A DNA stretch of 26,436 bases from positions 1-26,436 of the IMG/VR virus record IMGVR_UViG_3300025769_000703. One strand, given 5' to 3'. Below are positions 4,062-24,899 of the stretch, one piece after another. The position numbers and the translations under genes are program-made. The notes under the pieces were generated by a model, which was given only the letters and a program-made list of their open reading frames with translations, was not told the origin of the DNA and did no database searches. The DNA is from a virus. Position 1 is the first letter of the stretch. Every line of letters starts with the position of its first letter.

Positions 4062-6311
4062 TTATCTTGATACCCGCCCTACATCAAACCTGTAAATGCT
4101 TGTTGAATCAACAGCAAACATATATTGATTTGACTTGGCAAATTTTAACCCTTTGAAGGCTAAGCTATCGAGCTGTTTTGTGCTTGTGTTTGTTGCGTTC
4201 TCAAAAAGCCCAGGATTTGAGAAGAATAAATTCAAGAATCTATCCACACCAAAAGCAACAGCATACGCACCGCTTTGCTCTGCATCAAAGGCATCGACTC
4301 TGGTTAAGGTTGCTGCTGACAAGCTAATACTACCCGTTTGAGTTAATGTCGATATGTCGTAATTAGTATATGCAGAATAAGTAACGCCAGAAGATGTAGA
4401 GCCGTTATCTTCCATTACTAAAAACTGACTTCCTTCTCCAATTATTCTTAATTTTTTCACTGGGATCGAGGAGCTATAAGTCGCAGTTGATGACAGTCCG
4501 GTTATGCTGGATATGTCAAAAGCTGAACTTAAACTATACTCTTCAATAATAAATTCAGTTCCAATACTTTGGTTCATTAAAAATAATCTTGTGCCGTCTA
4601 TACTGAAATCAAAAGACTGGTAAAGCGAATCAGACAAAGTGTAGGTGTCGCTCAAGGTAGCGCCAGAAACTACATATTGAGTTGCAAAGTCGTACTTTAC
4701 GATACGATAAGGCGATGTACCTGTCATGATTAGAGCAAAGTTGCCGCCAGGATCAATAAAGACATCCCTAAAAGACAATGACCCTAATAACTGGAAGTCG
4801 CCTAAATCTATTGCTGATGGATCATAAATTGCTGCCGGTCCATACAGTAGCTGACTTGATGTAGGTGCAGGTGATAGCGGGTCTTTGTTTATCTCGTCAG
4901 CAACCCATGCCCTTTTATATCTGCCCTCTGACAATCGTTCACTGTAAATACATCTATAACTAATGGCATCATCAAGGTGTATAATTGGGTAAACGCCGTC
5001 AGCGTCAGATTTAATGGGCTGGGCTATGACATTTTGCAGGTCAGAATCTGAATATACATCTTCTTGGTCGTATGAGTCTGTAGTAAAAAACTCTAATTGA
5101 CCCTGCACAGACCTGCCTGTCTTGTCGTTCTGAAATGTTTTTGGCAGGCTAAAAAGGCCTGTAGTGCTCCCCGCAGCCCTTAAATAGCTTGCAGGGTATA
5201 TGCTCACACCTCTTAATCTGACGATAGAAAAGTATTTCCCCCCGCTAAAAAAAGCTATTTGAAGCCAATCGCGGTTATCGCTGTCACTGTCTGTGAAGTC
5301 CTCGTCATAAACAATATCTAAATAGTAGCTGCCATTTATAGAGCTAAGGCTGAACGCTGTCGTGCATTTGTACTGCACCAACCTCCTAACTCCGCTGGAT
5401 TCCTGGGTAGCGTAACAAGTAAGCCCGTCATCTGAAAAGCACACAGCATTAGGAGTGCCTAGCAAACCGTCTGATGATTCGAACGTTTCCGATATCGTAG
5501 CGCCCGTAATGTTAAAGTCAGAAGAAAGTACTCTTTTTTCTATAAGCGAGTTCGTCTTGTCGCATGAAAATAAATTCAGGCCGTCCGGTGAAACATAAAG
5601 CCCAGAATGACCATCATTGCCAAGGTCAAGCGATTGGCTCAGTGAAGCGGTCGATAGATCGTAATTTGTGCCAAGTGTGTACACTCTTAGACCATCGGTT
5701 CCAGTTAGATTCTGAAGCACCATTATTTTAGAGCCGTCAGAATTAAACTTAATACTCCTCATGCTTGTTAAGCCTGGTATTTCAACGTCAACGCCGCTAT
5801 CTCTGCTATTTAAGTCGTAAGCAGTGCTTAGAGTAAATACTTTAAAAAACCCTGTTGTTGCCTGGGCGATAAATACCTTTGTGCCATCGCTATTGAAATC
5901 AACACCGCCGTTCGGCGTCCTAGAGCTGGAATCAGGACAAAAGCTCAAATAATCAAACACATCGGGGGTGTAATAAATTGCCTCATTAGATCCAACTATA
6001 TCTCTTTGTGTATCATTGTCGGATGGTGCCAATGGATAATCATCAACAGAATAAAGCTCTTCATAAACTCCAGGTCTTGTGCGCTTAGATAAAACCACCG
6101 TATACGACAAGGCATCATTTATATAAATTTGCGGGAATATACCATTTTCATCAGCTATAACAGGGTTGTCTATCTGAAAACCAAGCCCGGAGTCTGAATA
6201 AACGGGCTGCAAAATAGCAGTGCCAGACTGATAAAAAGTAAGGCTAGCATAAGGTAATGACAGGCCTTTTTTGTCGTTAGCAAAGGCTTTGGGGTTGCTA
6301 AAAAGCGCCAT
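4062..6311 (-). CDS. tail fibre/spike protein with two tandem attachment-propeller units
   Basis: This 749-aa virion protein probably binds the host surface. Residues 1 to about 90 are a tail-attachment domain of the type GxxLPYASLTFYQSGT...VYSDS...NPVIADENGIFP...Y.V. Residues ~130-377 hold five repeats with the core FNSDGTKVFI...VFTLSTAYDLNS, typical of beta-propeller blades. At ~385 a second attachment domain starts (LFSLPKTFQND...VYSDSDL...DADGVYP), followed by five more repeats at ~512-749. The second unit begins almost exactly like the N-terminus of the next upstream gene, so this gene looks like a fusion of two once-separate spike genes. Start overlaps the upstream stop by one base (TAATG). 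The function is inferred from domain order and position; no enzymatic motif is seen. Confidence 0.75.
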   Translation of the reverse strand: MALFSNPKAFANDKKGLSLPYASLTFYQSGTAILQPVYSDSGLGFQIDNPVIADENGIFPQIYINDALSYTVVLSKRTRPGVYEELYSVDDYPLAPSDNDTQRDIVGSNEAIYYTPDVFDYLSFCPDSSSRTPNGGVDFNSDGTKVFIAQATTGFFKVFTLSTAYDLNSRDSGVDVEIPGLTSMRSIKFNSDGSKIMVLQNLTGTDGLRVYTLGTNYDLSTASLSQSLDLGNDGHSGLYVSPDGLNLFSCDKTNSLIEKRVLSSDFNITGATISETFESSDGLLGTPNAVCFSDDGLTCYATQESSGVRRLVQYKCTTAFSLSSINGSYYLDIVYDEDFTDSDSDNRDWLQIAFFSGGKYFSIVRLRGVSIYPASYLRAAGSTTGLFSLPKTFQNDKTGRSVQGQLEFFTTDSYDQEDVYSDSDLQNVIAQPIKSDADGVYPIIHLDDAISYRCIYSERLSEGRYKRAWVADEINKDPLSPAPTSSQLLYGPAAIYDPSAIDLGDFQLLGSLSFRDVFIDPGGNFALIMTGTSPYRIVKYDFATQYVVSGATLSDTYTLSDSLYQSFDFSIDGTRLFLMNQSIGTEFIIEEYSLSSAFDISSITGLSSTATYSSSIPVKKLRIIGEGSQFLVMEDNGSTSSGVTYSAYTNYDISTLTQTGSISLSAATLTRVDAFDAEQSGAYAVAFGVDRFLNLFFSNPGLFENATNTSTKQLDSLAFKGLKFAKSNQYMFAVDSTSIYRFDVGRVSR
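4887..5159 (-). repeat. internal fourth copy of the fibre-attachment domain
   Basis: Codons ~385-475 of the 749-aa gene repeat, in mid-protein, the domain that starts the three fibre genes (other copies at about 8506-8769, 7184-7459 and 6042-6311, all - strand). Similarity is visible in DNA too: the segments near 5131-5159 and 7425-7459 share the GAATGTTTT/GGCAGGCT-like runs that encode FSLPKTFQND in both. This points to duplication within the locus rather than independent acquisition. Confidence 0.7.
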
Positions 6312-7459
6312 TATGCGGGCCTCTCAAAATTAGTTAAATAGTCATAAATTCTGTACCATTGCTCATCAACAAACCACAATCGTTTGCCAGAATCAAGAAA
6401 CCTAAACCTACCGTACACGCCAATCTGTGAAGTTAAGTTTAAAAATTGCCTGCCTGGAACAGCAGTGGTTATATTAAATGGCGTCTCCATGTGTAACGAG
6501 TACACGCGCTCTGATGAGCTGCCGTAAAAGTAAGCCTTCTTTCCGTCTGGCGTCACTTGTATTGAATTTATGCTGTTCTCCTGAGCCACGCCAGACGTAA
6601 GATCATAAGCGCCAATATAGGTTAGAGTAGCTATGTCGTAAGGCGTTGAGGCCAAATAGTATAAAATTTCTTGGTCGTTAACATTACAGACATAAAAAGC
6701 AGATCCACTGTTAGACCAAATTATATCGACGCCACCCGCTAAAAACTGACCTGTCGTAGTAAACGTCTTTTCTCTAGTTGCGGTTCTTAAGTCATAAGCT
6801 GTGGTTAGTGCATACTGTATGTATAAATCGCCAAGATTATCTATTATATAAAACTTAGTGCCGTCATCGTTGAATGTGAAACAACCAACATTTACCGTGC
6901 CGCCGTCTATAGCTTCTGCGTATTCGAGCGAGTATGAAGATAGATCAAGCAAGTTACTTAACACAAACGACTGAATGACTCGGCCTGTGCCACCATAACC
7001 AAGAAAGAATCGCTCACCGTTTGGCTGTACTTCAAAGCCTGCCGTAGGTGTCGTGACACTTAAAACGTCATCGGTAAAATTAGCCACGCTGCCAGAAAGA
7101 TTCTGGTAACTGAAATGGTATGGAACGTTTTCACTGTTGCCGGTATATTCTACGACGCCATTTGCAGGGGCAGCCCCATAAACAACGCCGTCTTGCTCCC
7201 ATACTGTCTTGTAAAGGCCTTCTCGTATACGCTCCTCATAGACAACTCTATACTCTTCTCGCTCAGTAGCGTAAAAAACAGGGAATCGACCGGCACCGTC
7301 AGCATATACAGGATTGTCTGTGGTTTTAGTTAGAGCATAATCAGAATATATTGCTTTAGGGTTGTATGTGCCTGTTTCATAAAAAGAGTACCTAGCATAA
7401 GCACTAGTGCGCCCATCACTATCATTTTGGAATGTTTTGGGTAGGCTGAAAATGCTCAT
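6311..7459 (-). CDS. tail fibre/spike protein, attachment domain plus beta-propeller
   Basis: This 382-aa protein has one attachment domain (1 to ~92; SFYETGTYNPKAIYSDYALT, NPVYADGAGRFPVFY) and five repeats of ~45-55 residues. Repeat cores are at ~141-175, 192-227, 243-278, 299-333 and 349-377 and follow (F/V)xxDGxKxY...(V/I)...Y.L.TxYDLxT, as in WD/YVTN-like or tachylectin-like propellers. It is a single unit of the module found twice in the downstream gene. Start and stop overlap neighbours (ATGA upstream, TAATG downstream). It is most likely a receptor-binding protein recognising cell-surface glycan, but ligand and stoichiometry are inference. Confidence 0.75.
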   Translation of the reverse strand: MSIFSLPKTFQNDSDGRTSAYARYSFYETGTYNPKAIYSDYALTKTTDNPVYADGAGRFPVFYATEREEYRVVYEERIREGLYKTVWEQDGVVYGAAPANGVVEYTGNSENVPYHFSYQNLSGSVANFTDDVLSVTTPTAGFEVQPNGERFFLGYGGTGRVIQSFVLSNLLDLSSYSLEYAEAIDGGTVNVGCFTFNDDGTKFYIIDNLGDLYIQYALTTAYDLRTATREKTFTTTGQFLAGGVDIIWSNSGSAFYVCNVNDQEILYYLASTPYDIATLTYIGAYDLTSGVAQENSINSIQVTPDGKKAYFYGSSSERVYSLHMETPFNITTAVPGRQFLNLTSQIGVYGRFRFLDSGKRLWFVDEQWYRIYDYLTNFERPA

Positions 7460-8769
7460 ACAGTACCAAAGCCTTTTATTTTAAACTTAAAAACCCCCAG
7501 CACTACAGTGTTGGCGACATCATTAGTGCCAACACCGACAGTAAATGAATTGTTTGATTCTAAGTATATTCTTGACATTTCATACATAACATTGTCAGTG
7601 CCAGCCGCTGTAGTTACGATAGTCGAGCATTGCGCTCTACGTAGGTCTTTAGTGAACCCTGATGACTTTCCCGCATAAACAATAAATGAATCATCAGCAG
7701 GGCTTACTGATGCTGTAGCCTGCCAAATCACATCTATATAAACGGTGTCAGACGGAAGTATGTCTAGGTCAGCGTCTATTATCGTTGCGCCTGAGCCTGT
7801 TGGACCTACAGTAACATTGGAATCTGTAGTGTCATTTATCGAACCAATCAAATCAATAGAGCCAACACCTGAAGGATAATCCTCAGCGCTGTAATAAAAT
7901 ATGTCGGCAGTAAAACCGGAAACCGTTGGTGCATCTAATCCTAAGTTAGTTCTAGCTGTGGCTGCATTGGCAACATCGGAAAGATTATTGGCTATACTGA
8001 GAAACTCGCTAGCGATACCTAGGTTAGTTCTAGCTGTCGATGCGCTATTTACATCTGATAAGTTGTTGGCGCGACTTAAAAACTCACTTGCAATGCTTAG
8101 GTTAGTTCTAGCTGTTGCCGCGTTAGACACATCAGATAGATTGTTCGCTATCTGTAAAAACTGGCCTGCAATGTTTAAATTAGTTCTTGCGGCAGACTGA
8201 GCTGCACCGCCAGCCGCTGCTATCTCAGATAGATTATTCTTTGTATAAAGGTAATTATATAATCGCTGTATTTGGTTGCCGTTATCGAGATCAGCAAAAG
8301 CGTCATCATCTGCGGTGCCAGTTCCGCCAGCCACAACAAGCCATTGAGCGCCTTCATCGTCTGTTTCATTTGCAGTGCCAAGCGTTACGATGGTTTGCCC
8401 AATCTGTAAATCAACCGTTTCGCCAGTGATTGTAATGCCTTGCTTGGCGTCAACTAAGTCATCGAAGTATAGGGCGCTGGTTGTTAAGACAGTACCCTCA
8501 GCAGCGTTTATCCCATCTCGGTCAAATAGCTGAACATCATTCTCGTCAGTGACTACAATTCTATATGCGCCAGATTCTAAAAATATGGGAGGGAAAACGC
8601 CGCCATCGTCAGCAATGACGGGGTTCGTGTTGAGATTGACCAAGGAGCTATCTGTAAATGTATCTTTGTAAGTCGATGTTCCTGACTCATAAGTGTATAT
8701 TTTAGCACCTGGCAGAGTTCGCCCAACTGCATCATTAAAAAATAGGATTTCTTGCTTTAGCGTCGCCAT
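7456..8769 (-). CDS. tail fibre protein with NNLSDV-type repeats
   Basis: This 437-aa tail fibre has three regions. Residues 1 to ~88 are the same attachment domain as the two downstream genes (KIYTYESGTSTYKDTFTDSS, NPVIADDGGVFPPIF). Residues ~120-175 form a linker. Residues ~178-279 are four repeats of 26 residues (the first longer) with the pattern NNLSDVxNAATARTNLxIAx, a widespread phage fibre shaft repeat that forms trimeric stalks. The C-terminal ~155 residues are a beta-rich, possibly receptor-binding or trimerisation head (DIFYYSAEDYPSGVGSIDL near its start). Unlike its neighbours it lacks the propeller, so it is probably the primary fibre. It overlaps the ejection-protein stop by one base. 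Confidence 0.85.
   Translation of the reverse strand: MATLKQEILFFNDAVGRTLPGAKIYTYESGTSTYKDTFTDSSLVNLNTNPVIADDGGVFPPIFLESGAYRIVVTDENDVQLFDRDGINAAEGTVLTTSALYFDDLVDAKQGITITGETVDLQIGQTIVTLGTANETDDEGAQWLVVAGGTGTADDDAFADLDNGNQIQRLYNYLYTKNNLSEIAAAGGAAQSAARTNLNIAGQFLQIANNLSDVSNAATARTNLSIASEFLSRANNLSDVNSASTARTNLGIASEFLSIANNLSDVANAATARTNLGLDAPTVSGFTADIFYYSAEDYPSGVGSIDLIGSINDTTDSNVTVGPTGSGATIIDADLDILPSDTVYIDVIWQATASVSPADDSFIVYAGKSSGFTKDLRRAQCSTIVTTAAGTDNVMYEMSRIYLESNNSFTVGVGTNDVANTVVLGVFKFKIKGFGTV
7936..8238 (-). repeat. 78-bp coding repeats of the fibre shaft
   Basis: Four in-frame units encode NNLSDV/NNLSEI...ARTNLxIA(S/G)xFL. Units 2 and 3 are exactly 26 codons; unit 4 is cut at the shaft end and unit 1 is degenerate and longer. 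DNA identity between units is high (repeated TTAGTTCTAGCTG on the + strand), so unit number may vary by slippage or recombination. Confidence 0.8.
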
Positions 8770-11180
8770 TAGTTATTCTCCTGGGCTTCGTCGCCCTCAC
8801 CCTCAATAAGCCAAGGTATTATACCAACAGTTGCTATTTCAGCCCTAGTTGCCTCTGGCAAAGTCGCTACCCAGTCATTATAAGCTCTACTGTCTATAAG
8901 TGCTCTCCTAGTCCTTCTTGCTGCCTGGGATGCTGGATTGCTAGCAGCGACTAATACAGCCCTAGTGAACTGCGGGCTTGCCATCAGCGAGTCAGCGGCA
9001 TCTAACGTGCTCTGCTTCACCCCATTCCCTGACAGGGTGCTTGCCAATGCGCTAAATGCTGGGTCTACCTGGGCTGTACTTGCTATATTGTAGAGCCTAG
9101 ACACAATACCGTCTTTTTTATCAAACTGACGCAAAAGCGTTTGTATTCTCCCTGTAGGTGCGGCTCTCTTTGCGGCTGCACTCCAGCCTTTCGACACTTT
9201 ATATAGATCATCCAATCTACTAACTTGATCTTCACTGAAATGTTGAAAAAGCTTGTTTTTTAAAGTAGGAGAACGCTGTAAACCCTCATACCAGCTAGCA
9301 TACCCTGGCATGGTCAATTGGCTTGCATTCCTTCCGCCATTCGTAAACGCATAACGCAAAGAGGTCGCCATCGCCTCTTGCCGCATATCTTCAGGAATAG
9401 CTGCCATGACCCTATCAAAGTTTCTAAGCTCATCAACACTAGCTCTACGCACAACAGCGCCGAGCTCAGGAATAATGCTCTTTTGTAAATTGCGACCTAG
9501 GGCGTCAATCATCGCCCCCTCAATGCCTTTTTTCTGAGCAGTCAAGTTTTTAGCTTGATCCCAAACACCTTGAACACCATAAATCGGGTTATCTGCTATC
9601 TGTCCCTGTATGTCAGTTAAAACCCCGTAATATTTGGAAAGCTCAGCCTCCGAGGCATTCTCAAATGGTGTTGATTTTTTAGCTAGCTGTTCACCTATAA
9701 GCTTTCTTTCCCTGTCTATCAACTCATAAGTTACTACCTTGTCGGGGTCACTTACAAACCTATAAAGCTTTTTTTCTACTGGCGACAATTCAGAAACATC
9801 GCCGCCATAAACGGCCAGCCTTTGGCTTAATACATCACCTAGACCAGAAACATCAACAACCTCATCACCTGGAATAGCATCGCCTATAGCATTATAAAGG
9901 GCGTTAGCTTCATCCTGTAATGCTAGCCTTGTGTCCTCGACTCCTTGGGTTATCCTGTTTGACATGCTTGCGGTGTCAATGTCGCCGCCAAACTCTTTAA
10001 TGATTTCATCAGCTTTTAATGACATCTGATCTATAAATCTTGCTTTCTTGGTTGCTGTTTCACTGCCAATAATGGTCGCAAGTCCCATTTCAAAATCCTG
10101 GAATTGCGGGTTTTGCGAAGCGGCTGATAGTGGCATTTGATCAGCAACGCCCAACCTTTCAGCCGCTTCAATTGTTGCGGGGTTTACCTCTACCTCTGCC
10201 GCTAACGTCGAAACCCTATCAGTTGTCGGTTTAGTTACCGTTTCACCAGCAAGCTGCGTCACCTGGCCTAGTTCATCAACTCTCTGGCCGCCTTCTTGGG
10301 CAATGCTCATCGCATCCTTTACGGCATCATTGTAAGTAACCCCGTTGGCACTAAGTACTGACACTAGATGATCTGTTGGCTCGCCTGTAGCTTTTATGAG
10401 TGGGACAGTTGGAGCCTTTCCGGTCATCCTCCGATATACCGAACCAAGACCGCGACCAACAACAGGAATGCCCATTTCGATAGCCAAGGCCACGCCGCCG
10501 CCAATACCCGCCCCAGCCAAGGGGTCTTGCCCTCTACCTTGGGAAATAATCCCACCTTCTGACGCTCCTAATAATCCAGCTCCAGCAACCCTGGCAGCCG
10601 TTGAGCTTAACATTGGAACTTTGCTCGCTACAGCACCAGCCCCGCCACCTGCCGCCAAAAATGGCGCAGTCTCACCAACAAACTCACCAGCAGTAACAGC
10701 CCCACCAGTGGGTGAAATTTGTTTTAACTGCTCCATTGATCTAAGGTCAAATTCGTCCTCTTTTTCCATCATCCCTAAGCCCCTAGCAACTGTAGAGAAT
10801 CCCCTACCAGTGCCGACCAGAAAATTGTCCAGGGTTGACATATCTTCAATTTGAGCCGCCTGATAAGGGTTGACTTGTCGTAACTGCTCAAGCTTTATAA
10901 GTCGCTCACGCTCTTTAAGTCTACGCCTTTTTGTTCTGGTGTCTCTTCGCCTGTCTCCAGTATTTCCGGTTCTAGCCATGATGTCTGCATATACATCCTG
11001 TGGCAATCCAAATTCATTGCTTGCGCCCTGGGGTATGACGGCACCTACCGGGTTTGCCCTTATATCACTGCGCTCAGCGGCCTCAATCATAGCCGCCAAT
11101 CTTGCCGCGCCGTTCCTGTCGCCAGCTTCATGCGCCGCTCTCATAGCTTGCTTTAATTGCTCGACATTGTTGGTGGTCAT
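8769..11180 (-). CDS. large internal virion / DNA ejection protein (P22 gp16-like position)
   Basis: This 803-aa protein is the third of three successive internal-protein genes after the gp10-like gene. Residues ~5-36 form a helix pair with the pattern LKQAMRAAHEAGDRNGAARL, often seen at the N-terminus of phage ejection proteins. A basic patch (GDRRRDTRTKRRRLKERERL) lies at ~75-94. Residues ~158-245 are very rich in Gly/Ala and hydrophobic (AGGGAGAVASKVP, AGAGIGGGVALAIEMGIPVVG), suited to membrane insertion during DNA entry. The rest is long and helical. Similarity to P22 gp16 is by position and composition, not recognised residue identity. No lytic transglycosylase motif is visible. ATGA overlap with the upstream gene indicates coupled synthesis. 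Confidence 0.7.
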   Translation of the reverse strand: MTTNNVEQLKQAMRAAHEAGDRNGAARLAAMIEAAERSDIRANPVGAVIPQGASNEFGLPQDVYADIMARTGNTGDRRRDTRTKRRRLKERERLIKLEQLRQVNPYQAAQIEDMSTLDNFLVGTGRGFSTVARGLGMMEKEDEFDLRSMEQLKQISPTGGAVTAGEFVGETAPFLAAGGGAGAVASKVPMLSSTAARVAGAGLLGASEGGIISQGRGQDPLAGAGIGGGVALAIEMGIPVVGRGLGSVYRRMTGKAPTVPLIKATGEPTDHLVSVLSANGVTYNDAVKDAMSIAQEGGQRVDELGQVTQLAGETVTKPTTDRVSTLAAEVEVNPATIEAAERLGVADQMPLSAASQNPQFQDFEMGLATIIGSETATKKARFIDQMSLKADEIIKEFGGDIDTASMSNRITQGVEDTRLALQDEANALYNAIGDAIPGDEVVDVSGLGDVLSQRLAVYGGDVSELSPVEKKLYRFVSDPDKVVTYELIDRERKLIGEQLAKKSTPFENASEAELSKYYGVLTDIQGQIADNPIYGVQGVWDQAKNLTAQKKGIEGAMIDALGRNLQKSIIPELGAVVRRASVDELRNFDRVMAAIPEDMRQEAMATSLRYAFTNGGRNASQLTMPGYASWYEGLQRSPTLKNKLFQHFSEDQVSRLDDLYKVSKGWSAAAKRAAPTGRIQTLLRQFDKKDGIVSRLYNIASTAQVDPAFSALASTLSGNGVKQSTLDAADSLMASPQFTRAVLVAASNPASQAARRTRRALIDSRAYNDWVATLPEATRAEIATVGIIPWLIEGEGDEAQENN

Positions 11181-12245: not shown

Positions 12246-13571
12246 CTATAACCTCGCGTAATCTACAAATAAGATTCCGTCAACATTGTGAACAGCATCA
12301 GGTGTTATTTCCATTGCCTCCTGAGCCATCACGCCGACCATTGGAGTTTTATCAAAAATGTAGTTGTAACTATACCACTGGTGCTTGCCTATTTTCTTGT
12401 ATGGCTCGATGTTCTCCTTAAACCGTCTATCACTTAAAAACGGCAAGACTGATGCACCCGCTCCAATAATGTCACCAACAAATCCACGTCGGCCCTCAGC
12501 TTCTTTTGCGTCCATCTGGGCCTGTGTTTGAGCTGCATTCAAATCTTGTCCGCGCTGACCCATTAGCATATTTGCAATTGATTGCTGACCGCCTAAATTA
12601 AATTGCGCTTGATTCACGCCGCCTTGACTTTGCAAGCCAGCCAAATACTGCGATAGGTTTGCCGTATTACCAGCACCTGCGACAGCGCCTTGTTGCGCTA
12701 ACTGAGCTAGCCTATTTGCTGCATCAGTTTCTAAGCCAGCACGCTGTTGACCACCCGTCAAAGCTAACTGTGCCAATTCTGAGCCACCGCCACGTAGCAG
12801 ATCAGCTATGCTCATGGCTTCCTGAGTTGCAAGATTAGCGCCAGCACCCGCTAAGTTACGACCGGCGCTTGTTTCAGAGGCAAGCCTTGCAAGTTCTCGC
12901 TCGCGCTGCATGTCTTGACGATCCAGCAAGCTCATTTCCATTGCGCCGCCAATGTCAGCGGCTTGCTCAGCAGTAGAGCCTGAGAACAGCTTTCCTAATC
13001 CAGCGCGATTAGTGACAAGATCATCTATAGCAGACTTCCTGCCTCGCTCCATTGCGCCATAGCCACGAGTTTGCTCTAAGGGCGTTCTTTCACCATAAAG
13101 CATATCTTCAAATCGTTGTGCTGCTCGCTCTGTTCTCTGCATATGCGGGGATAACATTTCACGAGCACTTGCAAAGCCAGGAACTAGCGATTGCCTAGCC
13201 TGGTCAATGCCTGTTTGCACGTTCCCTGTAGCTTGAGCTAATGCAGGATTTAAGGCTTGTAGCGCCCTATCTCGCCCACCAGATACATCACCACGGGCGG
13301 CGGTTGTTCCGGTTGCTAGCTGCTGGTTTGCACTCATGAGGGCGTCACGTATGCTTTGCTCTGCGCCTTTATAGCCCTGAGCTATTCCAGCAGAACCCTG
13401 GCTTATTGCTGGATTAAGCATGGCAGCAAAATCTATGTTTTCTGGCGTGTTTAGATCATCAAGTGATCCAAGCCCCATAAAATCACCCACTGATTCCAGG
13501 GCTTTGCCGCCAGTCAAGGCATTTAGTGAGGCTGGGCCTACACCCATAGCCAATGAAGCTATATCAAACAT
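12246..13571 (-). CDS. virion protein ending in an S74 intramolecular chaperone (P22 gp7-like position)
   Basis: This 441-aa protein begins with a Gly/Ala-rich hydrophobic stretch and continues as a long Gln/Ala-rich helical region (for example QQRAGLETDAANRLAQLAQQ). The last 62 residues are a short S74 / endosialidase-type chaperone: SDRRFKENI at ~380-388 with the usual Ser nucleophile, then GVMAQEAMEITPDAV and VDGILFVDYARL. In fibres such domains trimerise the protein and then cut themselves off; here the host protein is by position an ejection or internal protein, a combination reported in other podoviruses. Autocleavage before Ser380 is an inference. The start is one base from the stop of the 59-aa gene. 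Confidence 0.75.
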   Translation of the reverse strand: MFDIASLAMGVGPASLNALTGGKALESVGDFMGLGSLDDLNTPENIDFAAMLNPAISQGSAGIAQGYKGAEQSIRDALMSANQQLATGTTAARGDVSGGRDRALQALNPALAQATGNVQTGIDQARQSLVPGFASAREMLSPHMQRTERAAQRFEDMLYGERTPLEQTRGYGAMERGRKSAIDDLVTNRAGLGKLFSGSTAEQAADIGGAMEMSLLDRQDMQRERELARLASETSAGRNLAGAGANLATQEAMSIADLLRGGGSELAQLALTGGQQRAGLETDAANRLAQLAQQGAVAGAGNTANLSQYLAGLQSQGGVNQAQFNLGGQQSIANMLMGQRGQDLNAAQTQAQMDAKEAEGRRGFVGDIIGAGASVLPFLSDRRFKENIEPYKKIGKHQWYSYNYIFDKTPMVGVMAQEAMEITPDAVHNVDGILFVDYARL

Positions 13572-13752: not shown

Positions 13753-15177
13753 CTAAACCCCCTTTTCAACGTAAAGTGTTGGGTAGTAAACAACAAACGA
13801 AATAGGCTCTGTAACGATTATCTTAAAAGTCATTTCAAAACCTCGTTTAACCATACCGAAGCTACGAGAAACGACTCTTATATTCCTATCCCCTGGCTCG
13901 CCAATACTTATATCTTTTTTTGACTTATAGGTAACGCCGCCGTCTTTACTATATTTTAGCTGTATTTTTGGCGTGTAAGTAGGCGCAAAGTCGCTTCCAA
14001 CTTCCATGTTCAGCTCAAACATAGATATGAACAAAGCAGCGGAATCGTCAGAAATAGCAGGAGTGACAATAGTAACTGGTATGGCTTCACCCGCTTCAGT
14101 GAAAGTCGCATCGTCAAACTCCCATAGAGTGCCTAAGCGCCAGTCACCAACAATGACTTTATTGAAATTAAGAACTGATTCTTTGCCGCGCCATCTTGAA
14201 ATGCCTTTGGATTCTCGCTTATGCCAAAGCCCTGTTGAAACATCGTACACCCATGTAACCTCTGCAACGGGGAACGTTAGCACATAGAACTTATGTACAG
14301 GGTGATCGATAAAAAATCCTTGCGCCAATTCAGGGTTGGCGTATCCCGTGTATTCTCCAAACCCCTCACCGCTTATTGCATACTCAAGATTGATATCGCT
14401 AATTTTTCTGGCTTCTGAACCGTCTATTTGCCAGACCGTAAGATCATTAGCAAGCCAAAATAAATTATCTTTCCATTGTGCTAGTGAGTCTTGTGCGGCG
14501 ATACCGCGATCAATCGCAGCACCTTGAACCGGCCTAACAGGAACTGTGGTGTCTGTTGGGTCACGCTGCCAATATTCGATAGTTTTTGAGCCAAAAAGCC
14601 ACAAATTCGTCTTAGTTGCGGCGATTGCTTTTAGTGGGTCTGGCGAAGCCTCTGCACTTGCTAGCCTAGTTGCTGAATAGTTAAGTCCGTCAGCGGTATC
14701 GCTTCCGATAAACACATTTGAATCTGGGCGATTTAGCCAAAATATCTGGTTTAACGAAGCAACATAAACATCAGCCGAAAAGTCTGGATCAGTTATTGCT
14801 TGAAACCCGCCCGCGTCATCGTAAATATAGCCGTTGCCTTCGCTTATGATGATTAGCTGATTGTCGTCTGTGCCATTCGCGTTAATACTGACTTTTGCTG
14901 TAGTCCCGCCAATATTCCCCAACAAAGTAGCCGCGCCTAATTCGTCAACACGGTAAAGCTCGTCTCGTGATGCAACATAGATAAACTCTTTTAGCGAGTA
15001 AAGCCCACGTATTGGGCCACTGCCAACGCTAGCAAATGTTTTAAGTCCTGGTGCTCGCCTTACTCGCGTAAAATTACCGTCTTTGTTTGCTTCAATATAG
15101 CAGTTGATCGCTTCCGAACGAGAGCGTCTTGAGTTGTAGTTCTGGTCAGCCCCGCCAAGCGCGATTTGTTGGTACAT
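13753..15177 (-). CDS. P22 gp10-like packaged-DNA stabilisation / tail accessory protein
   Basis: This 474-aa protein has the hallmarks of the P22 gp10 family (same length class, 472 aa in P22). It starts YQQIALGGADQNYNSRRSRS, followed by EAINCYIE, APGLKTFASVG and GPIRGLYSL, and continues through a beta-propeller-like sequence (LYRVDEL, NGYIYDDAGGF, LWLFGSKTIEYWQR, TGLWHKRES). Gp10 forms the lower ring of the portal vertex beneath gp4 and holds DNA inside after packaging. It sits directly after the gp4-like gene (TAATG overlap) as in P22. The assignment rests on recognised N-terminal motifs and gene order. Confidence 0.88.
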   Translation of the reverse strand: MYQQIALGGADQNYNSRRSRSEAINCYIEANKDGNFTRVRRAPGLKTFASVGSGPIRGLYSLKEFIYVASRDELYRVDELGAATLLGNIGGTTAKVSINANGTDDNQLIIISEGNGYIYDDAGGFQAITDPDFSADVYVASLNQIFWLNRPDSNVFIGSDTADGLNYSATRLASAEASPDPLKAIAATKTNLWLFGSKTIEYWQRDPTDTTVPVRPVQGAAIDRGIAAQDSLAQWKDNLFWLANDLTVWQIDGSEARKISDINLEYAISGEGFGEYTGYANPELAQGFFIDHPVHKFYVLTFPVAEVTWVYDVSTGLWHKRESKGISRWRGKESVLNFNKVIVGDWRLGTLWEFDDATFTEAGEAIPVTIVTPAISDDSAALFISMFELNMEVGSDFAPTYTPKIQLKYSKDGGVTYKSKKDISIGEPGDRNIRVVSRSFGMVKRGFEMTFKIIVTEPISFVVYYPTLYVEKGV

Positions 15178-17617: not shown

Positions 17618-18544
17618 TTAAACTTGACCTGATCCGTAATACTGACGCCCGTCAGTAACACCAACCGAGAATCGAGTTGCACCTTTATAGCGGAAGTTAG
17701 AAGTACCAAAGTCATTATCTTGAGCGAACTCATGATCATATCGACGAAAGAACTTGCCGCCATCCGGGACATCAGTGCGTAGGAACCAGTTGTCTGCATC
17801 CGTAAAACGATGATTGACATGGTAGCCACCTGGAACGGAGCCAGTTTTAGACAGTGCGTTGATAGCATTACTAGCTGTGTCATTCTGCAATGTGCTGCCC
17901 AAGATTCGTTCAGCAACAAAACGCAATTGCCTTGGAATGTGGAGAGTTTGCACTTTAGCAGAAATGATTAAGCCCGCATCGTCGCGGAAGTCTTCAACGT
18001 TTATAATGGCATCTTCTAAGCTAGCTTCAGACAAATCTGATGGCGTAGCCAAAACGTTTGAGTACGTACCGCCTTTAATCAACTTGTGAGAGTCGTTAAA
18101 AATACTTAACCCGTCCCAAAGAAGAGAAGAGCTATAGCCATTATTAAATAAGTTAGCTGCAATCTGTTCTTCGGTGTGCACTAAAGAACGCTTGAGTGCT
18201 GCGCCACCCTTAGTAACGAGGTCCAAATACAAGTTATCTCGGATAGCTTCATCAGAAATAATCATGCCCAGCGCATAAACGATATGATTGTACCGCTTTT
18301 TTTGGCCTTCCTGCATTGCATCATATTCGATTTGCTGGCCTTCAGGCTTTTGATTTGCTAGACCTGTCGTTGCAAATGGAACGTCTTCTTCATAAGCTTT
18401 CTTTGATTTTAAAACCTCAAGTATTTTTACGTATTCAGGCTCATAGTCTTTATATTCTGTATTAGTGACAGCGTTAAGCCCCTCTTGGAGCATACGTGCA
18501 GTGTTGCCGCTACCAGTTAAACCACCGTTTACTGTAATAGTCAT
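17618..18544 (-). CDS. major capsid protein (HK97 fold, Mu gpT-like)
   Basis: This 308-aa protein resembles the Mu gpT-like / HK97-fold coat group. An N-terminal helical part has EYVKILEVLKSKKAYEED; RYNHIVYALGMIISDEAIRD at ~84-103 looks like the spine-helix region; LLWDGLSIFNDSHKLIKGGT at ~141-160 is the typical phrase before the A-domain. The C-terminal portion has NWFLRTDVPDGGKFFRRYDH, which caps many gpT-like proteins. P22 gp5 is 430 aa with an inserted I-domain; this protein is much shorter and of a different coat group, so the capsid is not P22-type although the tail machine is. AAGGGGTTATAAA before the ATG is a strong ribosome-binding site. It follows decoration and scaffold genes, as usual. 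Confidence 0.85.
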   Translation of the reverse strand: MTITVNGGLTGSGNTARMLQEGLNAVTNTEYKDYEPEYVKILEVLKSKKAYEEDVPFATTGLANQKPEGQQIEYDAMQEGQKKRYNHIVYALGMIISDEAIRDNLYLDLVTKGGAALKRSLVHTEEQIAANLFNNGYSSSLLWDGLSIFNDSHKLIKGGTYSNVLATPSDLSEASLEDAIINVEDFRDDAGLIISAKVQTLHIPRQLRFVAERILGSTLQNDTASNAINALSKTGSVPGGYHVNHRFTDADNWFLRTDVPDGGKFFRRYDHEFAQDNDFGTSNFRYKGATRFSVGVTDGRQYYGSGQV

Positions 18545-21118: not shown

Positions 21119-21407
21119 CGTCACCATCCTTTTCTAGTACGTCTTGAATCTTGCAAAATTCCACTAAATCCTCAACGTCAATAAAATTAGCCTCAGCCGC
21201 TCTAGTGCTGTTGTAGACTACCATTGAGCTGTGCAAGTCTTTTGCATCAGCATCTTTGACCTGGCCACTATCCAAGTATTCCAATAAAGATTTCTCATCA
21301 CTGGAATGTTTCTTGCGGTAAGCCGCTTGAATCGCCTTGAACTCGTTGCCCCTCAGTACTGATAGCAACTGCGCTTTGGTCGGTTTCGAATATCTTTCTT
21401 GCATCAT
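21111..21407 (-). CDS. 98-aa hypothetical protein overlapping the portal gene
   Basis: The frame is open from a GTG at 21416, but the ATG at 21407 is the likely start because AAGAGGTG lies just upstream. The product is charged and helical (YSKPTKAQLLSVLRGNEFKA near the N-terminus, then acidic DVEDLVEFCKIQDVLEKDGD at the end). It overlaps the portal 3' end by 110 nt and the GroES-like gene by 8 nt. The family is unknown to me. Placement between portal and co-chaperonin suggests a head-assembly accessory or a regulator of their expression. Confidence 0.6.
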   Translation of the reverse strand: MMQERYSKPTKAQLLSVLRGNEFKAIQAAYRKKHSSDEKSLLEYLDSGQVKDADAKDLHSSMVVYNSTRAAEANFIDVEDLVEFCKIQDVLEKDGDDV

Positions 21408-23358
21408 CAAAAACACCTCTTAGGTTTTCGTAGTCTTGCTTCAACGTTTTGAGCATTAATTCACGCTCATTTTTATCAACCTGAGACAAATTCTTTAATG
21501 TCTCAGATTCGGTCTTCTTAATTTTAGAATCCACTTGGAACATTTCGACGCGGGCTTTCATCATGCTAGCCATTGACGACATCATCTTGGCCTGACTGCT
21601 AAGCTCTTCAGCCTTTGAGATTCTTTCCATAGACTGGGCTTGCATTACTGCTAGCGGGTCTGGCTGCTGTGGTTTAGGCTTTGGTAGGATCTGTTCAGGA
21701 TCACGCACACCTAGTGCGCTGTAATAACGGTTATATGCTTCACGTAAGTTATGCACTGGGTTTTGTTTGGCTTCTTCTAAGACAATCTTAGCCCTAGCTA
21801 CTCGCTCCTCATCGCTACCTTGTGCAGGATCGGCAGTTAAGCAAAGCGAGACATAGTTCTCGTCAAAGTCCTGCTCGAAACTAAATCCTTCGCCAACAAC
21901 CATTGAATACTCTTCAGTAGTCAAATAATCCCTGTAAATCTCCTGTAACCGCAGCAAGTCGCCAGTAATGCCACTGAATACGTTTATCTTTATAGCGTTG
22001 GGCAGTTTCTGAGCCTGTGAAAGTCGAGCCAAGTACAGTTCAGCCGCTTCACCTGGGTTAGACTCAACGTTGTGGATAGTTGATACCACATTCCTCGTGT
22101 CTACCTTCATCGATTCAAGTAGTTGGAACAGCGTTGAAGAGGGTCCATTAAAACTAGGCTGCCATATAGATTGACCTAAGTTGTCAGCTTCCAGGGCTTT
22201 AAATTTGCCCATTTCCAATTCAAAGCTACCTTTGCGGCTTCGGCTATTCGGCCCTAACCCACGACCTACAGATATGAAGCCGCTATTCATTGCCGTATTC
22301 TGTAGAGTTCCTGCATCAATTAGCTGGCGGGTGATCGAATTCATCGAATGGAACATGTCGCACAGCAGTACTCCCCACCCCATACCAAGAAATGAGCCGC
22401 CTGGATCTGGTATGTAAATGGTCAGAGTAAATAGAGCCTCGCCATCAATAGAAACGACCTTGCTGTCTTCAGTGAGCGTTACGTCTGAAACATCGAATCG
22501 AGCAGATACGGAAACGACCTCGCTTGAATCCTTGGCTATAGTGACTACATACGGCTCTTGGCATCCATCACCATCTAGGTCTAGCAAGCAATGAGACTCT
22601 ATGAATTCGACATCGTCTCTAGTGTCATCATCTTCACCATAATCAAACTCAATAAGCTGCCCCATTAATATTGCTGTCCTTACTTCACTCTTAGTCATCG
22701 TGTATTCGAACGACTTACGCGGGCAGTCTTTGAACGAGGCTTTTGTGTGGTCACAGATTAGCTCGTCTGGTTGAATTAACTGGGATCGGCGCTTCCCAGT
22801 CGATGGGTCATACCATATCTTCTTGTAGTACATACCTGTGATTGGAAGGGATAACAGGGCCTTTGACTGATCATCGCGCCAATTACTAATGCCTTTGCGT
22901 AGATCATAGTTAGTGAAGTCAGAGATTCTATCGCCACGCGCTACCGTTTCTGGGTCTTCTTTCGAGAATATTTCAGCCTGAGCTATGTTCTTTCGTTCAA
23001 CCACTTCGGGCGTAGTTCGTGACCAGAAGTCCAAGGCAGCCTCCATAACGTAGGGCATCATAACTCTAGAGGCCCCCTGAAATGGAAAATTCTTGTCTAC
23101 TTTCTCATCATCCATCTTGGCCAGCTTGAGTGCAACGTTGTACCTCTCTAGGTATGGCTTCATGGTCTGACGATCTTCCTCGATCCCATTGATCAAATCG
23201 GCCAAAGTGTCGTCATCGACCATATCGACGGGGTTTTCACTATCTAATATCTTCTGCAAGTCTTTGGGCAGCTCATAGATAACTTGAGCTTCATACACAT
23301 TAACATCAACGTCTTGATGTACTGGCAAGCTGTTTGGTGAGTTCTTATCATCATTCAT
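21298..23358 (-). CDS. portal protein (P22-like)
   Basis: This 686-aa protein is a portal of the P22-like, long-portal group (P22 gp1 is 725 aa). Visible landmarks are FPFQGASRVMMPYVMEAALD at ~91-110, ICDHTKASFKDCPRKSFEYT at ~201-220, DLDGDGCQEPYVVTIA at ~260-275 (a conserved phrase of the group that resembles a Ca-binding loop), GMGWGVLLCDMFHSMNSITR at ~325-344 and DAGTLQNTAMNSGF at ~348-361. A coiled coil of ~80 residues lies near 570-650, corresponding to the barrel region in P22. The portal forms the dodecameric DNA gateway and binds terminase and gp4-like adaptor. It starts 2 nt after the terminase stop. Confidence 0.9.
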   Translation of the reverse strand: MNDDKNSPNSLPVHQDVDVNVYEAQVIYELPKDLQKILDSENPVDMVDDDTLADLINGIEEDRQTMKPYLERYNVALKLAKMDDEKVDKNFPFQGASRVMMPYVMEAALDFWSRTTPEVVERKNIAQAEIFSKEDPETVARGDRISDFTNYDLRKGISNWRDDQSKALLSLPITGMYYKKIWYDPSTGKRRSQLIQPDELICDHTKASFKDCPRKSFEYTMTKSEVRTAILMGQLIEFDYGEDDDTRDDVEFIESHCLLDLDGDGCQEPYVVTIAKDSSEVVSVSARFDVSDVTLTEDSKVVSIDGEALFTLTIYIPDPGGSFLGMGWGVLLCDMFHSMNSITRQLIDAGTLQNTAMNSGFISVGRGLGPNSRSRKGSFELEMGKFKALEADNLGQSIWQPSFNGPSSTLFQLLESMKVDTRNVVSTIHNVESNPGEAAELYLARLSQAQKLPNAIKINVFSGITGDLLRLQEIYRDYLTTEEYSMVVGEGFSFEQDFDENYVSLCLTADPAQGSDEERVARAKIVLEEAKQNPVHNLREAYNRYYSALGVRDPEQILPKPKPQQPDPLAVMQAQSMERISKAEELSSQAKMMSSMASMMKARVEMFQVDSKIKKTESETLKNLSQVDKNERELMLKTLKQDYENLRGVFDDARKIFETDQSAVAISTEGQRVQGDSSGLPQETFQ

Positions 23359-23360
23359 AA

Positions 23361-24899
23361 TCAGTAACCTGTAACCGCTGAACGGCCCTCGAATCTAGTT
23401 TTATCTTCGTAGTGATCTTCATACGCTACTCTATCGACTCGCTCTGCTATTGCATATATAAGCGAATCCCCTTTGTCTGGCGACCTACCTAGTCGCTCCT
23501 TCATTTCCTGCTTAGAGCGAATCTGCATACCGCGAGCCGTCATTTTGTACTCATAAGAACACAAGTCAGCCTTTAGCTCAGCATCAACAGGCAGCATAAG
23601 ATTATACCCGTTTCGAGGGTCAAGTAAGTCTCGCATTTTCCAGATCCAATATGACCTTAGATTTGGAAAGTTAAGCTGGTCACTGATATCTCTCCTGGCA
23701 TCTGATTTAGAACCGTTAAGTGCTATTGCTTCCACGCCAAAAGTAGTTAAATGATCATAGCAAGAGGAACCATAGCCAATCATATCAACCAGTGGCACAG
23801 CGCCATGTGTGAGGTTCTTTATAACGAGTGACGCGCCGGTCTGACCATCAGGAACCTCTGCACCCGTATATGATATCTGTCTGGCAAACCAAGGGCCATG
23901 ACGTGGGGACAAAATCATTTTATCCTGACCACCACGGTTAGGGTCGACGCCCATAGCTTCCATTCGCTGATACTGTTCTGGCGGCTGCTCAGTCCATCGC
24001 TCCATAGCTTGATCAACCCAGCGTGTGGGTATCACTTGCCATTCGCCATCTGTTCGGCCTGCGCTAAAGTCACCATATAACATTTGGCTACGCAATGGCT
24101 CTGGCAATGCTTGCAGGGTAGCGATGTAATCTGTGTTTACTAAGTATTGGTTGTCAGTAACTAAGGAAGGGATAAACGTGCGGCTTTTAGGTGTTATCAG
24201 TTGGCCTTTGTGTTTTATTTGCTCTTGGCTATCAACTTCGATATCTTCGCCATCGATGACAGCAAACCATCGCAATTCCCCTGGCTTTGCAGGATTAGGA
24301 TGTTTTTCATCAAGCCACGGCCCAAAAAAAGGTATTACCCAGTCGCCCTGCGAGTCTGTTGGTGGGTTGCCAGTGAATACCACTCTACAGCGTTGACCTT
24401 CTTCTGTAGTACGTAGCCAGCCCATAGTAAAACGAACCATTGATTCTAAAAAGTGGGGGATTTCGTCATAAACGATCAGGTCATGTGGTCTACCCTGGTA
24501 CTTTGTTTCATCACCTGGGTGTGGCATTGACCCAAATTCTACTTGACGACCATCGAGCCGCCAGATCTTCTCCTGACCGTTGTAACCTTCACGATTACCA
24601 ATGATTTCGGTCATTCGATCAATCACGCCTGTCAGCTGTGTTGCTTCACGCCTAAAGATAATTGATTTTTTATGCTTAGTAAGAGCAAGCCCTATAGCTA
24701 GATCAGTCTTACCGCCACCTGCCGCACCACCATAGAAAGTTATATCAGCCTCACTATCCAAGGCCTTGGTTTGCGGCCCCTCCATTGGTATCCATAGAGG
24801 GGGAATGACGTTAGCTGTCAAGCTGTCTAGTTCTTCTACCTCTTGCTTCGTCAAATATGGCAGCAACTCTAGCAGCTCTTTCTGCGTCATTTGCTTCAT
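23361..24899 (-). CDS. terL: terminase large subunit
   Basis: This 512-aa packaging motor has Walker A GGAAGGGKT at 57-65, Walker B LIVYDE at 141-146, coupling motif FTGNPP at 175-180, and an RNase H-like nuclease with GVDPNRGG (Asp319), VDMIGYG (Asp372) and a terminal DKGDS with Asp475/Asp478. All motifs expected for an active ATPase-nuclease are in place. The N-terminus overlaps the small-subunit gene by 89 nt; ATG at 24899 or 24890 could be used, and the helical QKELLELLPYLTKQEVEELD at the start is typical of such TerLs, so the longer form is favoured. It is followed by portal, a standard order. Confidence 0.95.
   Translation of the reverse strand: MKQMTQKELLELLPYLTKQEVEELDSLTANVIPPLWIPMEGPQTKALDSEADITFYGGAAGGGKTDLAIGLALTKHKKSIIFRREATQLTGVIDRMTEIIGNREGYNGQEKIWRLDGRQVEFGSMPHPGDETKYQGRPHDLIVYDEIPHFLESMVRFTMGWLRTTEEGQRCRVVFTGNPPTDSQGDWVIPFFGPWLDEKHPNPAKPGELRWFAVIDGEDIEVDSQEQIKHKGQLITPKSRTFIPSLVTDNQYLVNTDYIATLQALPEPLRSQMLYGDFSAGRTDGEWQVIPTRWVDQAMERWTEQPPEQYQRMEAMGVDPNRGGQDKMILSPRHGPWFARQISYTGAEVPDGQTGASLVIKNLTHGAVPLVDMIGYGSSCYDHLTTFGVEAIALNGSKSDARRDISDQLNFPNLRSYWIWKMRDLLDPRNGYNLMLPVDAELKADLCSYEYKMTARGMQIRSKQEMKERLGRSPDKGDSLIYAIAERVDRVAYEDHYEDKTRFEGRSAVTGY

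Follow-up and report, generated by a model that had tools for sequence, protein, structure and literature searches.

A podovirus tail locus with four copies of a head-binding domain and predicted five-bladed propellers as candidate receptor-binding heads

Introduction

Five-bladed phage receptor-binding domains are of a known kind, since one is present in Gp45 of the Staphylococcus phage phi11, a known receptor-binding protein whose propeller is thought to bind the GlcNAc of teichoic acid, and PRD1 P2 has a distorted five-bladed propeller (PMC4901313). Receptor-binding modules are nevertheless unknown for most marine phages, and the papers describing the Lentibacter phage ICBM2 and the Roseobacter phage CRP-9, whose gp51 and gp42, respectively, carry propellers of the family considered below, do not mention them.

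The anchors of podovirus tailspikes are represented by the solved structures 7eeq ("Tailspike head-binding domain"), from Pseudanabaena phage Pam1, and 9vyg/9vyh ("Tail spike protein"). In Pam1, Pan3, PBR31, H6/1 and a Manatee Spring phage, this domain begins the tail spike gene, right behind ejection-type genes, and what follows it in these related podoviruses is a pectate-lyase-like or other spike body. Tandem anchors are ordinary in this group, as 10 of about 50 related loci (collected with a single anchor as query) have adjacent anchor genes, two in nine loci and three in one (L145), in which the first gene is usually the shorter and the second is longer and spike-like.

The window, by which we mean the whole stretch of 26,436 bases of a virus record that was analyzed, carries four copies of the anchor in three genes, three of the copies with propellers, whereas a Pam1-type locus has one spike gene with a different body. 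New in the window are the joining of anchor and propeller modules and the occurrence of the anchor-propeller pair twice in one chain. We consider it probable that the locus is the host-recognition apparatus of a podovirus, in which a multiplied anchor carries five-bladed receptor-binding heads.

Results and Discussion

Genome setting of the spike locus

The window is identical to part of the 35,069-base IMG/VR contig 3300025759_000299, its ~35-kb parent, and by this identity the two records cannot be treated as independent evidence; what is reported on the window all derives from one assembly. Genes were identified for the large terminase (23361-24899, PHROG 979), portal (21298-23358), major head protein (17618-18544), head closure protein Hc3 (13753-15177), an 803-aa protein in the ejection/internal-protein position (8769..11180, minus strand; PHROG 6704, 21143) and a holin of the gene-transfer-agent 3TM type (2062-2478, PF11351), and the window was therefore assigned to a tailed phage with a podovirus layout. 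The 803-aa gene lies directly upstream of the first spike gene, the same order as in Pan3, H6/1 and PBR31, so that the placement in a tail locus that had been read from the sequence alone agrees with the tailspike loci of related podoviruses. As most terminase relatives had no detectable anchor (one was found in one of 13 outside records), the locus could not be traced among close kin. Two other genes of the window are mentioned for their own sake. A 441-aa protein in the ejection-gene region (12246-13571) has at its C-terminal end a Peptidase_S74 intramolecular chaperone domain (E 6e-11), which is normally on fibres or spikes and not in such a region, and a MazG-like nucleotide pyrophosphohydrolase (1238-1783; PHROG 671, 2144) is encoded on the opposite strand.

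Four copies of the head-binding domain

The spike locus consists of three minus-strand ORFs encoding proteins of 437 aa (7456..8769), 382 aa (6311..7459) and 749 aa (4062..6311), which overlap by 4 bases and 1 base. According to the sequence-only reading, one ~90-residue domain for attachment to the virion opens all three of these adjacent tail genes and recurs internally as a fourth copy, and a domain search recovered exactly this arrangement: copy 1 in the 437-aa protein (residues ~1-93; 8491..8769), copy 2 in the 382-aa protein (residues ~1-98; 7166..7459), and copies 3 (residues 1-98; 6018..6311) and 4 (residues 386-479; 4875..5156) in the 749-aa protein, all on the minus strand, with no fifth copy anywhere in the 35-kb parent contig. 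The attachment role claimed for the domain was borne out by its matches to 7eeq and 9vyg/9vyh, at E-values of 4e-6 to 7e-13 for single proteins and of 2e-34 for the anchor family profile. The homology to these tailspike domains extends over the domain length, and the anchors are of the same length and have the same N-terminal position, in tail genes beside ejection genes, with the exception of the one internal copy.

The four copies have pairwise identities of 33-39%, and the three that are linked to propellers have 37-39%. In a tree of 62 anchors these three formed a clade (support 99/95), and they have a 4-residue insertion in common. The odd one out is the anchor of the 437-aa protein, placed elsewhere in the tree on a long branch, although forcing all four into one clade was not rejected (AU p 0.41). 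The comparisons thus support a multiplication of the anchor within the lineage of this phage. The idea of one attachment domain in four copies stands in that all four copies were found, but it has to be modified for the 437-aa protein, whose copy falls outside the well-supported clade and is joined to fibre repeats.

The 437-aa protein has no propeller and consists of the head-binding domain, four NNLSDV..TARTNL tail-fibre repeats (residues 172-280; 7930..8256, minus strand) and a C-terminal domain; its gene may represent the first member of a tandem anchor-gene pair. Its fibre-type repeats, and the fact that it alone of the three proteins matches named tail fibre families (PHROG), would suit an arrangement in which this fibre is the receptor-binding protein and the propellers serve to space or decorate the tail. 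We consider such an arrangement very improbable, given that no part of the locus is more divergent than the propellers, which are C-terminal to the anchor, where the receptor-binding domains of tailspikes lie, and sit behind different anchors in other phages. Our preferred assignment of receptor binding is to the propellers.

The internal anchor, copy 4, was complete across its ~90 columns and fell in the clade of copies 2 and 3. Both properties are consistent with its serving as a docking platform that holds another spike instead of being a mere fusion remnant, a role that would add to our preferred explanation and not replace it; phage CBA120 has a branched multi-spike system. By profile score, however, this is the most diverged copy (69 bits versus 88-95 for the others), and we regard a docking function as unlikely.

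Predicted five-bladed propellers

To identify propeller blades we used an HMM of 52 positions trained solely on CRP-9 gp42 and ICBM2 gp51. The E-values were 3e-28 for the 382-aa protein and 3e-27 for the 749-aa protein, and none of 1000 shuffled copies scored better than 8.6e-6. These matches place the proteins in the propeller family of those two phages. The HMM scores were too low for blades 1 and 5 of the 382-aa protein and for several blades of the second propeller of the 749-aa protein, and since the HMM alone missed these, the count of five was derived from alignment to the family and from AlphaFold2 models. Folding was performed with propeller-only alignments, as full-length ones misplaced blade 1 into anchor columns. 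The propeller of the 382-aa protein (residues 125-375; 6335..7087, minus strand) was modelled as five four-stranded blades at residues 139-183, 191-234, 243-286, 297-341 and 350-375, the last of which is completed by an N-terminal strand (125-127), with a pLDDT of 85 and pTM of 0.84. The second propeller of the 749-aa protein (residues 514-743; 4083..4772, minus strand) also had five blades in its model, of which the last two were less certain (pLDDT 80, pTM 0.81). For the first propeller of that protein (5163..5969, minus strand), four units were detected by the HMM, and the sequence aligned with the family over five. The earlier proposal that three of the anchors are each followed by five repeats was therefore upheld, by closed five-bladed rings in the models for two of the propellers and by alignment for the third.

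The nearest solved folds for both modelled propellers were five-bladed glutaminyl cyclases (3mbr, with Z 19.4 and rmsd 3.0 over 220 residues for the propeller of the 382-aa protein, and Z 17.4 and rmsd 3.2 over 215 residues for the modelled one of the 749-aa protein), with the paraoxonases and SMP-30 among the other enzyme folds. These similarities, together with matches of Pfam SGL and Lactonase to family members outside the window and the presence of pectate-lyase-like spikes at the same position in related phages, raise the question of whether the propellers act on surface polymers, as lyase, lactonase or cyclase-like enzymes that break down or alter them, and have replaced the depolymerase spikes of their relatives. 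We judge this quite unlikely. The conserved columns of the family (DG, Y, S/T-x-x-D) recur in every blade and look structural, and in the family alignment variation is highest in the b-c and d-a loops, both on the same face of the propeller, with the a-b and c-d loops conserved. Such variation fits binding by that face and suits recognition better than catalysis. Blades of this type can, though, also belong to enzymes or to structural spacers, and recognition of the host cell is what we consider the most likely role of the propellers.

In sequence, the propellers of the window are outliers of their family, with 18-30% identity to outside members compared to a median of 44% within the family, and scanning the propeller parts with Pfam and PHROG models produced no usable match. 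The mutual identity of the three (16-23%) is no greater than that to outside propellers (medians of 21-23%), and a joint duplication of the propellers is consequently not demonstrable. The propeller tree was unresolved, with window branches of 4-5 changes per column and long-branch warnings, and for this reason no claim is based on it. The suggestion that the locus was expanded by duplication accordingly holds for the anchors, by virtue of their clade and shared insertion, and is not demonstrable for the propellers. The difference in identity between anchors (37-39%) and propellers (16-23%) indicates that the heads either diverged much faster or were exchanged. The viral models closest to the window propellers included the ICBM2 protein and other uncharacterized marine phage proteins (TM to 0.84).

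Of the solved structures, the YVTN surface-layer propeller 1l0q matched the propeller profile best by sequence (E 2e-20); it is a seven-bladed ring and, unlike the tail proteins of the window, belongs to a cell-surface protein. Tachylectin-2, the example cited in the sequence-only reading, has five blades and binds sugar; it was not among the sequence or fold matches listed for the propellers. The more apt functional precedent is the phi11 Gp45 propeller, the best structural match of which is likewise a glutaminyl cyclase (PMC4901313). The nearest enzyme fold published for Gp45, 3nol (PMC4901313), is also that of the propeller of the 382-aa protein; Gp45 itself was not among the matches listed. 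Gp45 and the modelled window propellers have in common five blades, a place in a tail protein and a ring closed by an N-terminal strand. The phi11 protein differs in having as its anchor a coiled-coil stem on a siphovirus baseplate and in its tower domains, which the window propellers lack. No sequence relation was found between the window propellers and that of phi11 (hhalign probability 0.1%), and the model to which Gp45 belongs, PF21311 (Phage_RBD_prop), had no match in the contig of the window; one outside family member scored 21.9 bits, against a curated cut-off of 23.7.

Proposed function

We propose that each ~90-residue domain docks its protein onto the short tail, in the manner of the homologous tailspike head-binding domain, and that the propellers of the 382- and 749-aa proteins, presumably assembled as trimers, would point outward and bind a receptor on the host surface, probably a sugar. 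The propellers would stand where related phages have depolymerase-like spikes. If the anchor was multiplied in this lineage and its heads diverged or were exchanged, several binding specificities would become available to a single type of tail. The earlier suggestions that the heads may bind glycans and that one virion may bear a mixture of spikes are both plausible.

A family of five-bladed propellers in marine phages

Viral-contig scans with the spike proteins of the window matched only its parent contig, and relatives of the propellers were identified by scanning viral contigs with the ICBM2 protein, which yielded 80 IMG/VR loci, 63 of them distinct. These loci, ICBM2 gp51 and CRP-9 gp42 have the blade family and five-unit rings of the window but different N-terminal anchors, and the outside propeller genes have tape-measure, tail-fibre and baseplate genes among their neighbours. 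The number of units in contiguous arrays was 5 (87 arrays), 10 (10 arrays) or 15 (6 arrays), with none of 6, 7 or 8. Counted per gene across the 63 distinct loci, there were 59 genes with 5 units, 18 with 10, seven with 15 and one with 20. Eight other genes departed from multiples of five, mostly owing to contig ends, frameshifts or divergence; two of them, L117:3890-5527 and L085:3191-6847, with 9 and 14 detected units, are unexplained, and perhaps one unit was missed in each. Given that nearly all intact genes carry 5, 10, 15 or 20 units, five blades are the rule of the family, and the half-blades at both ends of a set would fit a ring closed through a shared blade. Five-bladed propellers in general may be uncommon, as had been remarked of this locus, but marine phages often carry members of this family.

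Propeller genes, too, are commonly multiplied in marine phages: at 20 of the 63 loci (L051, L071, L090, L101, L111 and others, all marine viral contigs), between two and four of them lie side by side. L051 has four such genes, with six rings. In L071, a short N-terminal motif (NNKDF.. / NDKSF..) is common to three genes, which parallels the window with a different anchor. A P22-like head-binding domain precedes a five-bladed propeller in L055:3038-5065. The match of this anchor to 1lkt was weak (E 0.027), and a profile comparison with the anchor family of the window gave E 5e-5; L055 is probably an independent second case of the pairing of a podovirus anchor with a propeller.

The scans did not reveal a Pfam or PHROG model made for this family, and the broader propeller family behind the window merits description. 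We see an even chance that a family of receptor-binding propellers, so far mostly undescribed, is common to marine phages, being locked at five blades, multiplied as whole rings (5, 10, 15 or 20 units in a gene, with as many as four such genes side by side) and transferred among unrelated anchors. The window would then represent rings placed on a podovirus head-binding domain and multiplied there to give several recognition heads, including one chain with two anchors. A recognizable ring of fixed size that occurs in tandem in tail loci provides a handle for finding receptor-binding modules in metagenomes, and the family forms a natural set for the study of how phages diversify host recognition. 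Among ~85,000 bacterial and archaeal genomes, two matched the family, likewise in sets of five. One example from bacteria is a large protein of Marivirga aurantiaca (L177), which contains two five-unit sets of this blade family.
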